From the NCBI GenBank assembly GCA_022071945.1, contig JAJVIN010000002.1, positions 1-64,000 on the forward strand: a DNA stretch of 64,000 nt, read 5' to 3'. Below the pieces are notes generated by a model. It ran no database searches and was not told the origin of the DNA. It saw nothing but the letters and a program-made list of their open reading frames with translations. Within the stretch, counting starts at the first letter, position 1. The number at the start of each line of letters is the position of its first letter. Origin of the DNA: Thermoanaerobaculia bacterium. Lineage in GTDB: Bacteria > Acidobacteriota > Thermoanaerobaculia > UBA5066. The position numbers were made by a program, and so were the translations under genes. Below, piece by piece: positions 54,027 to 61,104 of this stretch.

Positions 54027-54719
54027 TCACCGGCGCCGCCAGATGCCCTTCCCGATCTCCTTCTGCGCCAGCAGGAACTTCTTTTCGTAGTCCGTTCCGG
54101 TCTCCCAGCCGGCGATCTCTTCCGGTCGCAGCCGCTCGAGGGCGGGACAGGAATCCATGAGCGACGTGATCGCCTTCCAGTACTCCTCGTGGTCCGAGGC
54201 CGCCTTGAAGAGGCCCCCTTCGCCAAGCGCCCGGGCCGCCGCCGCAACGAAGTCCGGCTGAAAGACCCGCCGCTTGTGGTGCCTCATCTTCGGCCACGGA
54301 TCCGAGAAGTAGACGTGGATCGCGGCCACGCTCGCGGGCGCGAGCCTCAGCTTGACGAATTCCCGCCCGTCCAGCCACTCGATCCTGAGATTGGAGAGAC
54401 CGAGCCGGGCGATCTTGACCTGCGCGATCCGCACGTAATCCGGCTCGATCTCGATTCCGAGATAGTTGCGTTCGGGGTGGGCCTGAGCCTCGGCGAAGAG
54501 GAATCTCCCCTTGCCGGTGCCGATCTCGACCTCGACGGGAGCCTCCCGGCCGAACAGGGTGGGGAGGTCGGCGTGGGATCCGGATTCGGCCTCTCCGGGC
54601 AGCGAGACGCGGGGCGGAGGGGTGACGCCGCGGCTTCTCGGCCCCTGACACCTGGGTTCCTTTGGCTGAGTGGCGAGTCCCGCTCGCTTCAGAGCGCGGC
54701 GGAGCGCAGGGCGGCTCAT
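54027..54719 (-). CDS. trmB: tRNA (guanine-N7-)-methyltransferase
   Basis: TrmB makes m7G46 in tRNA. The ATG at 54719 gives 230 residues; the upstream extension is in the ferredoxin gene. An N-terminal basic segment (MSRPALRRALKRAG) comes first. The SAM motif is EIGTGKGRFLFAEA, then EPDYVRIAQVKIARLGLSN and HVYFSDPWPKMRHHKRR. It is the last gene of the queG-led run, 17 bp after the ferredoxin gene. Confidence 0.93.
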   Translation of the reverse strand: MSRPALRRALKRAGLATQPKEPRCQGPRSRGVTPPPRVSLPGEAESGSHADLPTLFGREAPVEVEIGTGKGRFLFAEAQAHPERNYLGIEIEPDYVRIAQVKIARLGLSNLRIEWLDGREFVKLRLAPASVAAIHVYFSDPWPKMRHHKRRVFQPDFVAAAARALGEGGLFKAASDHEEYWKAITSLMDSCPALERLRPEEIAGWETGTDYEKKFLLAQKEIGKGIWRRR

Positions 54720-54736
54720 TCTCGATGGCTTTCCTT

Positions 54737-55030
54737 CTACAAGACGGTTTTTCCGGGGAACTTCACGATCCGGATCGTGACGTCGCCGAGGATCCGCGTC
54801 TGGCAACCCAGACGCAAGCCCGGCCCGAGGTCGAGCGCGAGCTCCGCGCGAGCCGGCGGGGACAGGTTCTCGGGGCCAGAGACCACCTCGAACCGGCACG
54901 TGGTGCACGAGGCACTTCCGCCGCAAACATGTTCCATGGGAGCCTGAAGGGACAATGCGGCATCGAGAACGGTCGACCCGATCCGCACGGTTCCCTTCTG
55001 TCCACTGCCCGCGAAGATGACTCGAGGCAT
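54737..55030 (-). CDS. [2Fe-2S] ferredoxin
   Basis: A plant-type ferredoxin fold is seen in this 97-residue protein (ATG at 55030; a TTG at 55039 is the alternative). Four Cys bind the cluster: CGGSASCTTCRFEV and, near the C-terminus, GCQT. A valine-rich beta segment comes first. It lies 49 bp after the Nudix-Rieske fusion and 17 bp before trmB. It could carry electrons to QueG or the Rieske domain. Confidence 0.85.
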   Translation of the reverse strand: MPRVIFAGSGQKGTVRIGSTVLDAALSLQAPMEHVCGGSASCTTCRFEVVSGPENLSPPARAELALDLGPGLRLGCQTRILGDVTIRIVKFPGKTVL

Positions 55031-55079
55031 TTCCTTCAAAACCGCCGGATTCTCTCCGATCTTCGTGAAACCGGAGGAT

Positions 55080-55844
55080 TCACTCGACGACGACCGTGAG
55101 CCCGCCAGGGGCTTCGAGAGTGTCGAATCGCCTCAGGAACTCACCGCGGCAGGGTCCCGAAACGCACAGACCCGAGCGGGAATCGAAGAGCGCGCCGTGG
55201 TTGAGGCAGGCGAGTCTGCCATGAGGGTCGAGCGGAATGTGCTCGCCGTGCGGGTTGAGCGGCAGCGGACGGTGGGGGCAGAGGTTCTCGAACGCGCGCC
55301 AGCCGTCAGGAGTTGCGATCAGGAACCCTCTGACCCTCCCGAGGTCCCGAGATTCAGCCTCGAATGTCAGGACTTCTGGCGTGCTTCCGTCATCCGGCAG
55401 GGGGACGAAGACCTCGACGGTCTCGGGCTCTTCCGTGTCGAGGAAACTGCCCCCGCCCTCCACTTCGAGGCGGCGAAGGATCTCGTGGTCCGCCGGAGGC
55501 ATGGGGAGGGTGCGGGCTTCGCCGGGGAGACACCAGCGGACCTCCTGACCCGCCGTGCCGGCGGGGGAGCCCATCATCGCCGTGACCTTCATGAAGAGGA
55601 GCACGAGAGTCATGCCGGGCTTCTCGTCGCAGGCGAATACGTAGGGCTCGGAGCCATCGACCGACACGCCCAGTTCCTCCAGCCACTCGCGCGACAGGGC
55701 GTGGGCCGGGCTCTCGTTTGCTTCCAGCTTTCCCCCGGGGAACTCCCAGAGGCCGCCATACGCGGCCGACACGTGCCTCTGGGCGAGAAGGACTCGCCCC
55801 TTGCGCACGAGGATCCCGGCGGCGACGAAGACAGTCTGTCTCAC
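55080..55844 (-). CDS. Nudix hydrolase-Rieske [2Fe-2S] fusion protein
   Basis: This 254-residue protein begins at a GTG (55844) overlapping the queG stop, behind AGGAAAG. The N-terminal Nudix domain (about 1-135) has a full Nudix box, GKLEANESPAHALSREWLEE then LGV, as in MutT-like enzymes; its catalytic Glu residues are present. The C-terminal domain (about 165-254) is a Rieske domain with Cys-x-His in NLCPHRPLPLN and Cys-x2-His in ACLNHGALFDSRSGLC, the four cluster ligands. I know of no characterised protein with this pairing. The upstream frame extends into queG and is rejected. Confidence 0.85.
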   Translation of the reverse strand: MRQTVFVAAGILVRKGRVLLAQRHVSAAYGGLWEFPGGKLEANESPAHALSREWLEELGVSVDGSEPYVFACDEKPGMTLVLLFMKVTAMMGSPAGTAGQEVRWCLPGEARTLPMPPADHEILRRLEVEGGGSFLDTEEPETVEVFVPLPDDGSTPEVLTFEAESRDLGRVRGFLIATPDGWRAFENLCPHRPLPLNPHGEHIPLDPHGRLACLNHGALFDSRSGLCVSGPCRGEFLRRFDTLEAPGGLTVVVE

Positions 55845-56833
55845 GACTTTCCTCGATTGGCGAGAACGGCCCGGGCATTGCGCGCAAGCCCCCGCCATCC
55901 GGCCCGCGTGAGGGCCGTGTGAGAGAAGCGGGCGTCGAACTCCTCCTCTGTGAGCGAGGCGATCTCCCCAGGGTCGAGCTGTGCCGCGGCCGTCTTCAGG
56001 GGCGGACCGTTCCACGGGCAGACGTCCTGGCAGATGTCGCAGCCAAAGAGGGTCTCGCCGATCGCGTCAGCCTCACCGGCTTCGAAGTCCGAGCGTTTCT
56101 CGATCGTCAGGTACGAGAGGCAAAGGCGGGCATCGAGGAGCCCGGGACCCTTGAACGCGGAGGTCGGGCAGCCGTCGAGGCAGGCGGTGCAGGAACCGCA
56201 CTCCGAGAAGGAGGTCTCTGCCGGCTCGGGGACCGTCGCGGAGGAAGGCCCGAGATCGACGTCCGTCAAGAGCTCACCCAGGACGGCGTGGGATCCGACC
56301 CCGGGGATGATGAGCATCCCGTTCTTGCCGATGAACCCCAGCCCGGCCCGCACCGCGACCTCGCGTTCGAGGAGCGGCGCCGTGTCGACGCAGACGCGGA
56401 AGTGCGTCCCTTCGGGGCAGGATTTGGCGAGCTCCGCGGCGATTCTGTGAAGGGCACGGCGGACGGTGACGTGATAGTCGTCCCCCCGGGCGTACCGGGC
56501 GACGTTTCCGGGGCCTCCTGGTGGGAGCAGAAGCGCCACCGCGAGGACCGACCGGGTGAAGGGCAGGATGTGCGAGAAGTCCTGCCGGGCGGCGGCGTCC
56601 CTGGCGAGCCAGTCCATCTCGCCCGCGTAGCCGGCGGCGACCCAGTTCCAGAAACGGTCCCACGTGAGCGGCTTGGGCGCGGAGAGGACCCCGGCGGCAC
56701 AGAAGCCGTGCCGCCCGGCGAGGGTGAGCGCGAGTTTTCCGAGCCCCGCGGGGTCCGAAGGCTCGGGGGGAGGCGGGAATCTCGGAGGCCGCTTTCTCGG
56801 GAGCGGCGGGGGCGATGCGGGCGCGGTCTTCAT
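55841..56833 (-). CDS. queG: Epoxyqueuosine reductase
   Basis: QueG reduces epoxyqueuosine in tRNA to queuosine using cobalamin and two [4Fe-4S] clusters. The ATG at 56833 follows AGGA at six bases; 330 residues. A Pro-rich N-terminal extension (residues 1-30) is unusual. Core motifs: the cobalamin-binding region (CVDTAPLLEREVAVRAGLGFIGKNG), then CGSCTACLDGCPTSAF and CDICQDVCPWN with the eight Cys. It is the first gene of the queG-Nudix/Rieske-ferredoxin-trmB operon and diverges from the AI-2E gene. Confidence 0.95.
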   Translation of the reverse strand: MKTAPASPPPLPRKRPPRFPPPPEPSDPAGLGKLALTLAGRHGFCAAGVLSAPKPLTWDRFWNWVAAGYAGEMDWLARDAAARQDFSHILPFTRSVLAVALLLPPGGPGNVARYARGDDYHVTVRRALHRIAAELAKSCPEGTHFRVCVDTAPLLEREVAVRAGLGFIGKNGMLIIPGVGSHAVLGELLTDVDLGPSSATVPEPAETSFSECGSCTACLDGCPTSAFKGPGLLDARLCLSYLTIEKRSDFEAGEADAIGETLFGCDICQDVCPWNGPPLKTAAAQLDPGEIASLTEEEFDARFSHTALTRAGWRGLARNARAVLANRGKS

Positions 56834-56868
56834 CCGGCGTCCTATGATCCCAGAACCGGAGCAGAACG

Positions 56869-57963
56869 ATGACGAGTCCACCAGCTTCCCGCTTCTACCA
56901 GATCTTCAGCTTCGTGGTTCTCGCCCTGGCGATGGGTTTCTTCGCCTTTCGAATCCTCGAGCCGTTTTTTGCGGCGATCGCCTGGACGATCGTTCTCGGC
57001 GCCGGCTTCTATACGCCCTGGAAGTGGCTGAGCTCGAAGATGCCGAAGAGCCCGAATGGCGCGGCCACGTTGATGTCCCTGGGAGTTGCCCTGGTGTTCC
57101 TGCTCCCCGCCACCGTCCTTGCCATCGTCCTGATCAACCAGGCAGCGGATGCGATCGGACTTCTGGGAAACGAGCTTTCGAAGAGGAACGTCCGGTCCGT
57201 CGACGACTTCATTCACATCCCCCCGGTGACCCGCGTGCTCGACCTCATCCACGAGAAGACGGGCATGACGGCCGCGGACCTGCAGGCCAAGGGAGTCGAG
57301 GCGCTTGGCAGGATCTCGTCTTCGCTGGCCCAGATGAGCGGAGGGTTCCTGAAGGGGATCCTCGACGCGATGATGACGTTCGCGCTGACGATCTTCCTGC
57401 TCTTCTTCTTCTTCCGGGACGGGGATGCGTGGGGAGCGGCCGCGTTTGGCGCGCTGCCCATTCACGACAAGTCGAGAAAGAAGCTGATGGTCGGGTTGCG
57501 GTCGATGCTGCAAGGGATCTTCCGGGGTTCGCTCTTGTGTTCGCTCGTGCAGGGGATCACGGGCGGAATCGGGTGGGCTCTCGCCGGGCTCCCGTCGGCG
57601 GCGGTGGCCGGTGCCGCGATGGCGCTGTTCTCGCTCTTGCCCCTTGGCGGAACGGCCCTGATCTGGGGCCCCGGAGCGATCTGGCTGTGGATTGCGGGGC
57701 ACAAGGGCGCCGCGATCTTCCTGGTCGTCTGGGGTGTCGTGGTCGTTTCGTTCCTGGCCGACAACGTCCTGCGGCCCCTCCTGATCGGAGGAGGGGCGGA
57801 GCTTCACACCCTCGTGGTCTTTCTGGGAGTCTTCGGCGGGATCGGGGCGTTTGGTCTTCTCGGGATCTTCTTCGGCCCCATCATCCTCGCCCTGGTGACG
57901 ACGATGCTCGACATCCTGCGCGAGGAAGCCCGGCTCGTGTCCCCTGCGGAGCCAGACGCGTAG
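56869..57963 (+). CDS. AI-2E family membrane permease
   Basis: This 364-residue protein has about eight membrane segments (FSFVVLALAMGFFAFRI, AATLMSLGVALVFLLPATVLAIVL and the C-terminal half with GGIGWALAGLPSAAVAGAAMALFSLL). The family is named for E. coli TqsA, which exports autoinducer-2, but most members are uncharacterised. It starts 35 bp from the divergent queG. A TATGAT box lies 20 bp before the ATG. Confidence 0.9.
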   Translation: MTSPPASRFYQIFSFVVLALAMGFFAFRILEPFFAAIAWTIVLGAGFYTPWKWLSSKMPKSPNGAATLMSLGVALVFLLPATVLAIVLINQAADAIGLLGNELSKRNVRSVDDFIHIPPVTRVLDLIHEKTGMTAADLQAKGVEALGRISSSLAQMSGGFLKGILDAMMTFALTIFLLFFFFRDGDAWGAAAFGALPIHDKSRKKLMVGLRSMLQGIFRGSLLCSLVQGITGGIGWALAGLPSAAVAGAAMALFSLLPLGGTALIWGPGAIWLWIAGHKGAAIFLVVWGVVVVSFLADNVLRPLLIGGGAELHTLVVFLGVFGGIGAFGLLGIFFGPIILALVTTMLDILREEARLVSPAEPDA

Positions 57964-57972
57964 CCCGGGCCG

Positions 57973-59154
57973 TCACGGGATCCAGTCGGCCAGAAAGACG
58001 TTCGTCTCACCCGGCTTGGCGTTGTGCCGGTTGGAGCAGAAGACCAGTTTTCTTCCGTCAGGCGAGAACATCGGGAATCCGTCGAAGGTCGGGTTGTAGG
58101 TCAGCCGTTCGAGGTCCGTTCCATCGGAGCGGACCGACCAGAGGTCGAAATTTCGGCCCTTGGGATCGGCGAGGTTGGAGCAGAAGATGATCGTGTCGTG
58201 GCCCCCCCTGAAGAAGTAGGGGGCGAAGCTCGCGACGCCATTGTTCGTCACCTGGCGATCCTCGGTTCCGTCGGAGCGCATGACGCGTATTTCGAGGCGG
58301 GACGGCCGGATCAGGGCTTTGGCCAGGAGGGACTTGAAGTCGACGATGGCGGCCTCGGTTACGGGCCGCGAGGCCCTGTAGACGATCCAGTTGCCGTCGT
58401 CGGAGAAGAACGCTCCGCCATCGTAGCCGGCCGAGGTCGTGAGCCGCTTGACGTTGCGGCCGTCGGCATCCATCGAGTAGAGATCGAGATCGCCGTCCCG
58501 AACGGACGTGAAGACGATCTTCTTGCCGTCCACGGATATCGTCGCCTCGGCGTCGTACCCGGGGGAGTTCGTCAGGCGCTTCAGGCCTGATCCGTCGGCC
58601 TGGGCCGTGAAGATCTCGTAGTCGGAGTAGAGGGCCCAGACGTATCCCTGTGACATGTCGGCCTCGGGGGGGCAGGACTCGGATCCCAGGTGCGTCGAGG
58701 AATAGAGGATCCGGCCGTCCGGGAAGAGGTACGAGCAGGTCGTGCGGCCCTTTCCGGTGGAGACGAGCCTGGCCACGGGCTCCGGTCGGTCCAGATCTTC
58801 CAGGATGAAGATCTGGTCGCAAGAGTAGGGCGGCCGCTTGGACTGGAGAATGAGCTTCTTGCCGTCCGCCGAGAAGTACGCCTCGGCGTTCTCGCCGCCG
58901 AATGTGAGCTGACGGACGTTTGCGAGGTGCTGCTCTCCCGGATAGGTCAGGGGCGACAGGACGCCCTCGTACGGGTTGCCGGGACGCGCCGGCGGCGCAG
59001 TCGGCGTGGCCGCGGCGGTGGGCGCGGGCGGCTTCGGAGGCGGGGCGACGGGGGCGGCCGGCTTTCCGCACGAAAGGAGCGAGAGGCAGAGCCCGATGCC
59101 GGCACTTCCTGTGCGAAGGGTGAGACGAAAGAGGGGTCTCTCGGATCTCTCCAT
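57973..59154 (-). CDS. TolB-like beta-propeller lipoprotein
   Basis: This 393-residue protein starts at ATG 59154 and has a lipobox LSLLSCG (Cys about residue 29). A Pro/Ala-rich spacer (about 30-60) follows, then a six- or seven-bladed propeller of WD40-like PD40 repeats (ADGKKLILQSKR, VDGKKIVFTSVRDGDLDLYSMDADG, DDGNWIVYRASRP, PDGRKLVFCSNR). It probably sits in the outer membrane or periplasm and binds proteins. A TACACT box lies 12 bp before the start. Confidence 0.88.
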   Translation of the reverse strand: MERSERPLFRLTLRTGSAGIGLCLSLLSCGKPAAPVAPPPKPPAPTAAATPTAPPARPGNPYEGVLSPLTYPGEQHLANVRQLTFGGENAEAYFSADGKKLILQSKRPPYSCDQIFILEDLDRPEPVARLVSTGKGRTTCSYLFPDGRILYSSTHLGSESCPPEADMSQGYVWALYSDYEIFTAQADGSGLKRLTNSPGYDAEATISVDGKKIVFTSVRDGDLDLYSMDADGRNVKRLTTSAGYDGGAFFSDDGNWIVYRASRPVTEAAIVDFKSLLAKALIRPSRLEIRVMRSDGTEDRQVTNNGVASFAPYFFRGGHDTIIFCSNLADPKGRNFDLWSVRSDGTDLERLTYNPTFDGFPMFSPDGRKLVFCSNRHNAKPGETNVFLADWIP

Positions 59155-59211
59155 GTGGTGCGGGGGAGTGTAGCAACCAGGTGGTAAAACTCTCGGGCGC
59201 GGTACTGATCG

Positions 59212-61104
59212 ATGAAACTCCATGACAGCCCGTCACGCTCTCGCGCGAGCCTCGTGGAAGAGGTGGCTCGCCAACTTCTCTTTGATCTCGAAGCCCTTCA
59301 GACCCCGCTTCCAGGCGGGGGCCTCCAGCAGGCGTCCTCATCTGCTTCCAGCCCCGGCCAAGGACAGGGGGTCGAGCCGTTCTCCCTCGACGGGCCACGG
59401 ACCGTCCTGGAGGGTGGAGCCCGGTATGTCGCGCCTTTCCTGCCGGCTGATGCTCGGTTCAGGGCGGCGAAATCACTGATCCTGAGGTCCCTGCGGATCA
59501 TCACGAGGGATCAGTCGGTCTTCAACTCCGCCGTCACCGAGGCGCTCCGGATCGCCCTGAAGGAGATCGAGGACGGGGTCCGGAGGAGCCGGGAGCGCGA
59601 GGCCGCCGATGCAGGTTCGCTCTCAGAGAAATTGCGCTCCCTCGAGGGGCTCGGAAGCGAGAGCAAGACCAGGATCGATGAGCTCGCTTCCTCGGTTTCG
59701 GGACGGGGAGCCGAGGTGGACAGGCTCCTGGCGGAACTGGCATCCGGCCTCGAGAGGGCCAACGCAGCCATCACGTCTGAAGCCCGAAACCGCGAGAAGA
59801 CCGCGGAAGGCCTCGAGCGTCAGCTTCAGGAGCTCGAGGAGAGAAGAGGGCGATTCGTCAGAGAGCTCCAGGCGGCCCTGGGCCGAATCGAGAACGAGCT
59901 CGAGAACGAGGGCCGGGCCCGCAACGCCCTGGCGAAGGACTACGAGCAGCGGATCGCGCACCAGGACCTCCTGCGAAATACCCTGGCCACGGAGCTTGCC
60001 GGGGCTCTGGAGCGCGAAGCGAGATCACGGGAGATGGTCGCGACCGAGATGGAACGCCGTCTCGAACACCAGGAGAGGATGCGCTCCGCGCTGGCCGCCG
60101 AGATCCAGGGGGTGATGAAGGGCGAGGAAAAGGCGCGGGAGCTCGTCGGGCTGGAGCTCTCGCGTGCTCTGGCCAGGCTCGACAGGCTCGAGCGAGAGAG
60201 CGATCGCCACGAGGACGTCACCAAGGCCCTGCGGGTCGAGGGCGACGAGGCGTCCCGGAGGTTCGGGCTTCTGTCGAAGCGGGTCGAAGAGCTCGCCGAG
60301 GAGGCCCGGCTGTCGCGGCTCGAGTGGACGGCCCTGAGGTCGAGTCTGAGGGGTCTGACGGGGGGGGAGGCCCAACCTGGGGAGCGGGTCAGTGTGCCTC
60401 CACCGCAGGCTCCGTCAGCTTCACCGGCTCCTCTCGCGCCCGCGTCGTCGCCCCTCGATGCCGGAATCTATGCGGGTTTCGAGGAACGCTTCAGGGGCCG
60501 GGAGGATGTCATCCGGGAGCGTCAGATGCGCGATGCCCGGCTGTTCGTCGGGGCTCCGGGCCTCGTCGCCGACCTGGGATGCGGAAGGGGAGAGTTCCTG
60601 GAAGCGCTCCGTCAGCTCGGTGTGGCTGGCGAGGGCTGTGATATCAACGCCGTGGCGGTGGCGCGCGCGAGGCAAAAGAACCTCGCCGTCGCCGAGGAGG
60701 ATCTCTTCGCGTGGCTCGTCAGACAGCCGGATGAGTCGCTTGGGGGCATCACAGCCTTCCAAGTGGTCGAACACCTGGCTTCCGCGGATCTGCTCCGGCT
60801 CGTGGAACTCGCCTCGATGAAGCTCGCGCGAGGAGGCCGGATCCTCCTCGAGACCGTCAATCCCGAGTCCGTCTTCGCCATGAAGTGGTTCTGGATGGAC
60901 CTGACACACGTCCGGCCCGTTCCGGGCGGGAGCCTGGCTCAGCTCCTTTCGGCGAGCGGATTCCGGAACGTGAGGCTCGACTACCGTTCCCCGGTCCCGG
61001 CCGATGCCGCCCCGCCCGCGGAGGTCTTCCAGGATCCGAGACTTTCCAAGATGGCCGAGCTGCTCTTCGCGGCGCAGGACGTGGCCGCGATCGGAGAGAA
61101 GTGA
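59212..61104 (+). CDS. Coiled-coil methyltransferase of a glycan locus
   Basis: This 630-residue protein has three parts. A short N-terminal region (1-110) of unknown type is followed by a long coiled coil (about 117-377), which contains near-repeats of about 36 residues (EARSREMVATEMERRLEHQE and its neighbours). A Pro/Ala-rich linker (about 385-420) leads to a class I SAM methyltransferase (about 440-590) with LVADLGCGRGEFL and FQVVEHLAS. It begins a plus-strand run with two glycosyltransferases, starting three bases before the first. It may methylate a glycan and control chain length through the coiled coil, as WbdD does, but that is inferred. Confidence 0.82.
   Translation: MKLHDSPSRSRASLVEEVARQLLFDLEALQTPLPGGGLQQASSSASSPGQGQGVEPFSLDGPRTVLEGGARYVAPFLPADARFRAAKSLILRSLRIITRDQSVFNSAVTEALRIALKEIEDGVRRSREREAADAGSLSEKLRSLEGLGSESKTRIDELASSVSGRGAEVDRLLAELASGLERANAAITSEARNREKTAEGLERQLQELEERRGRFVRELQAALGRIENELENEGRARNALAKDYEQRIAHQDLLRNTLATELAGALEREARSREMVATEMERRLEHQERMRSALAAEIQGVMKGEEKARELVGLELSRALARLDRLERESDRHEDVTKALRVEGDEASRRFGLLSKRVEELAEEARLSRLEWTALRSSLRGLTGGEAQPGERVSVPPPQAPSASPAPLAPASSPLDAGIYAGFEERFRGREDVIRERQMRDARLFVGAPGLVADLGCGRGEFLEALRQLGVAGEGCDINAVAVARARQKNLAVAEEDLFAWLVRQPDESLGGITAFQVVEHLASADLLRLVELASMKLARGGRILLETVNPESVFAMKWFWMDLTHVRPVPGGSLAQLLSASGFRNVRLDYRSPVPADAAPPAEVFQDPRLSKMAELLFAAQDVAAIGEK

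Follow-up and report, generated by a model that had tools for sequence, protein, structure and literature searches.

The gene lies on the minus strand at positions 55080..55844 of the window, the 64,000-nucleotide stretch of DNA that we analyzed, and encodes a 254-residue protein in which a Nudix hydrolase domain is joined to a Rieske [2Fe-2S] domain. The frame comprises 254 codons and a stop codon, with no stop between the two domains. Its GTG start (55844-55842) overlaps the TGA stop codon (55843-55841) of the upstream queG gene in a 4-nt GTGA, and a Shine-Dalgarno-like GAGGAAA precedes it at 55854-55848. Third-position GC is 0.87 in the Nudix part, 0.81 in the linker and 0.77 in the Rieske part, and because GC by codon position is alike in all three, the frame reads as one coding region. 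The Nudix domain (55467..55826, minus strand, residues 7-126) matches PF00293 with an E-value of 3.7e-16 (59.8 bits against a curated cut-off of 21.1), and the Rieske domain (55083..55418, minus strand, residues ~143-254) matches PF00355 with an E-value of 3.2e-7 (30.6 bits against 20.3, over residues 175-235). These results bear out the initial annotation, made from the DNA alone, which had placed at these coordinates a single uninterrupted frame with a complete Nudix box, a complete set of Rieske ligands and a start overlapping queG, and which had proposed the Pfam search as a check.

The upstream gene queG encodes an epoxyqueuosine reductase (55841..56881, minus strand; TIGR00276, 1.6e-67), its true start within the open reading frame not being fixed. 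A plant/adrenodoxin-type [2Fe-2S] ferredoxin gene (54737..55039, minus strand; PF00111, 5.3e-9) lies 40 bp downstream of the fusion and is found at the same locus in most relatives; it is followed by a trmB-like tRNA methyltransferase gene (54027..54725, minus strand; PF02390, 1.3e-41). QueG, the Rieske domain and this Fer2 ferredoxin make three iron-sulfur proteins in a row in the window. The usual gene order in the family of the window genome (f1) is queG, the fusion, a CorC/CBS-domain gene, often the [2Fe-2S] ferredoxin, and then trmB and pgsA. The CorC/CBS-domain transporter-like gene, which in relatives sits between fusion and ferredoxin (as at L030:7186-8457), is missing from the window at 55039-55080. 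A TolB-like beta-propeller gene occurs near the Rieske gene in f1 (57973-59223, minus strand, in the window), and a gene of this kind lies close to stand-alone Rieske genes of family f51, from the same phylum but outside the class, and of one genome in family f6 (L124:2226-3227; L025:9664-10695).

The Nudix half contains a complete Nudix box of the form G-x5-E-x7-RE-x2-EE-x-G-V (55665..55733, minus strand, residues 38-60), which reads G38-x5-E44-x7-R52-E53-W-L-E56-E57-L-G59-V60 and agrees with the superfamily signature Gx5Ex7REUxEExGU. Alignment of seven fusions, including those from relatives described below, showed G38, E44, R52, E53, E56 and E57 to be invariant; the last G of the box is D in two relatives (G008 and G010). 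The best NCBIfam matches were to the N-terminal part of PRK08999 (4.5e-33), PRK10546 (9.8e-24) and MutT (1.1e-18), all scoring below the whole-protein cut-offs (114.6 bits against 245, 83.7 against 156 and 67.5 against 97.9, respectively), and we therefore describe the domain only as MutT/NudG-like. A fold search with the predicted model returned the MutT-like structures 3hhj and 3r03 as nearest, and also E. coli Orf135. MutT, NudG (Orf135) and MutT2, the best sequence and fold matches, share the fold and the complete Nudix box with the window protein, which adds a C-terminal Rieske domain. PRK08999, the closest NCBIfam model, belongs to the same MutT branch and likewise has a C-terminal fused partner, which is ThiE-like, but its match to the window protein, in which the partner is a Rieske domain, extends over only the first 129 of its 315 positions. 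E. coli MutT has PPAN where the window Nudix domain has PPAD, so a preference for 8-oxo-dGTP is not assured. The genome contains six other Nudix genes, none matching MutT-type models as strongly; judged by these models, the fusion carries the genome's Nudix gene closest to MutT/NudG.

In the Rieske half, the [2Fe-2S] ligand region C189-x-H191 ... C213-x2-H216 (55197..55280, minus strand) is invariant among the seven fusions and six stand-alone relatives, and these CxH...CxxH ligands fall within a predicted Rieske fold, the combination that characterizes Rieske proteins. A loop motif, C227-x2-GPC232 (55149..55166, minus strand), is shared with the stand-alone relatives, with C, G, P and C invariant. 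A fold search with the whole model was topped by Nudix-type matches only, and the Rieske part was therefore modeled and searched alone. The resulting model had a mean pLDDT of 90.2 and a pTM of 0.83, and Foldseek matched it to the Rieske ferredoxin of carbazole dioxygenase and to other Rieske proteins. CarAc, BphF and T4moC, the Rieske ferredoxins of aromatic oxygenases, have the same fold and ligand pattern and likewise lack the Ser of high-potential proteins, whereas the window domain is fused to a hydrolase, carries the CxxGPC loop and has no oxygenase in its operon; its identity to these ferredoxins is ~19-23%. The closest relatives of the fused domain are small stand-alone CxxGPC Rieske 2Fe-2S proteins, encoded by single genes in families f6 and f11 and in Proteobacteria, for which we know of no function.

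In respiratory Rieske proteins a Ser and a Tyr raise the potential, and their absence leads to a low one. The window domain has HGALF where high-potential Rieske proteins have HGS-x-Y; the Ser/Tyr pair is absent, and the alanine (Ala218) is invariant in 13 aligned relatives. Because these hydrogen-bond donors are missing, the sequence suggests that the Rieske half is a ferredoxin-type, soluble one-electron carrier with a potential of ~-100 to -150 mV. The low potential of BphF has been explained by the absence of hydrogen bonds of this kind to the cluster (PMC11638306), and ThnA3, the tetralin dioxygenase ferredoxin, was measured at -112 mV (PMC4814904).

The two domains are joined by a linker (55419..55466, minus strand, residues ~127-142) that is ~9 residues shorter in the window protein than in its relatives and in which model confidence is lowest at residues 138-141. 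It is also the least conserved part of the protein, with a mean identity of 37% versus 53% for the Nudix and 48% for the Rieske domain. The full-length model (mean pLDDT 80.6, pTM 0.51, no PAE) leaves the domain orientation uncertain, and together the models predict an ordinary MutT-like fold next to an ordinary Rieske fold of the ferredoxin type.

A search of 60 related genomes identified six more end-to-end fusions (G001, G003, G005, G006, G008 and G010), all in f1 and 44-48% identical to the window protein over ~235-250 residues. These genomes represent five further genera, bringing the total to six, and the gene is at the same locus in each, always directly behind queG. Alignment of the seven proteins needs few gaps except in the linker, and every catalytic residue of the Nudix domain and every Rieske ligand is retained. 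The initial annotation had stated that homologues invariably encoding the two domains as separate genes would count against it; six relatives proved to be fused. The fusion gene is thus real and is inherited within one bacterial family. Screening 149 genomes of the class with a Rieske profile located the fused form in f1 alone (seven genomes) and its close stand-alone counterparts in 13 genomes of f6 and six of f11, and the same approach across 396 genomes of the phylum added only three close stand-alone genes. A fusion profile run against 297 genomes sampled from the phylum gave no full-length match beyond f1. Many of the relatives' genomes are fragmented assemblies. Plasmid records yielded no fusion, and no record covered 80% of the query; a genome-contig scan by exact peptide patterns, by which only close relatives are detectable, gave one Nudix-only match. 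We found no paper on a Nudix-Rieske fusion in a literature search confined to open-licence papers. Within the genomes screened, the protein is confined to one lineage, and it pairs two familiar types of domain in a new way.

Unfused arrangements occur both within f1 and around it. The gene order in sister family f2 is queG, a Nudix gene without Rieske, and CorC, and in f3 it is queG and CorC. In f11, the six genomes with a stand-alone Rieske gene all have it behind queG; the f6 gene is not beside queG and adjoins phenylalanine hydroxylase in 6 of 12 fetched loci; and in both families the Nudix gene is located elsewhere in the genome. Genus g5 of f1 encodes Nudix alone, without Rieske, at the same locus. 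In a tree of neighboring genes, in which the f1 root is weakly placed, g5 groups with the fused G003 (support 93), and the Rieske domain was therefore most simply lost in g5. The fused Rieske domains form a single clade in their own tree (support 97), next to a clade of the f6 and f11 stand-alone proteins (support 99), with the window protein the most divergent fusion. Between two species of one genus, pN/pS was 0.21/0.52 for the Nudix and 0.20/0.42 for the Rieske domain; both halves are under purifying selection. The most parsimonious history has a single fusion at the base of f1 followed by losses. The gene looks like the retained product of a merger between neighbors and not like a machine of a novel type. 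In the f1 relative G007, an in-frame deletion takes out the Rieske core, including its four ligands, so that the Nudix domain and the GPC tail remain (L035:2347-2847); this reflects either true loss or an assembly error.

We favor, with a probability of roughly 50%, an explanation in which operon neighbors fused at the queG locus into a bifunctional protein whose halves serve independently in nucleotide-pool sanitation and one-electron transfer. The Nudix half, whose active-site residues are intact, would be a nucleoside-triphosphate pyrophosphohydrolase of the MutT/NudG-like kind that probably clears damaged or non-canonical NTPs. The Rieske half would carry single electrons at ~-100 to -150 mV, with QueG or a non-heme iron enzyme as candidate partners, and fusion would tie together the expression and stoichiometry of the two. 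Since Nudix occurs without Rieske (g5 and f2) and Rieske without Nudix (f6 and f11), each half can persist on its own, which makes independent function the most economical reading. Against this, maintenance of the fusion across six genera can reflect real coupling. Coupling of this sort had been raised by the initial annotation, whose architecture is upheld by the six fused relatives but whose suggested functional link finds no support here, each half also occurring without the other. It could take the form of a redox-gated nucleotide hydrolase, in which the Rieske cluster, by its oxidation state or by being lost, switches the Nudix enzyme and matches clearance of oxidized nucleotides to oxidative stress. 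Both halves are intact in all six genera and the linker, at a predicted ~15 residues, would be short enough to allow domain contact, but the same-locus Nudix orthologues without Rieske, the Rieske proteins without Nudix and the poor conservation of the linker relative to either domain make this doubtful. We likewise think it improbable that the cluster acts directly on the Nudix active site, which would make the protein an iron-sulfur-gated sanitizing hydrolase, a redox switch that turns the clearance of oxidized nucleotides on or off.

The remaining alternatives center on the electron partner. If the Rieske half were a QueG-specific donor, with the Nudix domain merely caught between, its position beside queG in two families, fused in f1 and stand-alone in the six f11 genomes, would be accounted for, although both families may have inherited the arrangement from a single ancient event. 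The potential expected of a ferredoxin-type Rieske protein should be too high for generating Co(I). The Fer2 ferredoxin encoded 40 bp downstream belongs to a type whose potential is usually lower, and it is the stronger candidate for reducing QueG. The clusters of QueG lie near its surface, so that another protein could pass electrons to either one (PMC4646009). The small Rieske protein occurs in 26 of the 149 class genomes and QueG in 134, a distribution by which we rejected an obligatory partnership and which contributes to our view that a dedicated QueG donor is unlikely. The Rieske half might instead be a general ferredoxin that keeps non-heme iron enzymes ferrous or feeds Rieske oxygenases. 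Related Rieske genes adjoin phenylalanine hydroxylase in f6 (L023, L024, L114, L115, L116 and L120), follow hppD-hmgA-maiA in Sphingomonas (L079) and follow a VOC-family gene in Alloyangia, and the window genome encodes two Rieske oxygenases elsewhere that could be the true partners. No non-heme iron enzyme or oxygenase gene adjoins the fusion, however, and an Acinetobacter relative is found in another setting, leaving a general role rather unlikely as well. An assembly or annotation artifact, or a dying gene, might be suspected from the divergence of the window protein, from G007 and from G002, in which the whole fusion gene is gone. With the fusion present at a shared locus in seven independent genomes, its ligands all conserved and both halves under purifying selection, chance or misassembly is ruled out and we regard decay of the gene as very improbable.

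The fusion gene offers a clear case of two unrelated domains merging within an operon, with the unfused states still visible in sister families. It also provides a way into the role of the small CxxGPC Rieske proteins, and it makes iron-sulfur gating of a Nudix enzyme easy to probe with one simple assay. The small CxxGPC Rieske genes found near hydroxylase and hppD loci point to a possible link between these proteins and the upkeep of non-heme iron enzymes.
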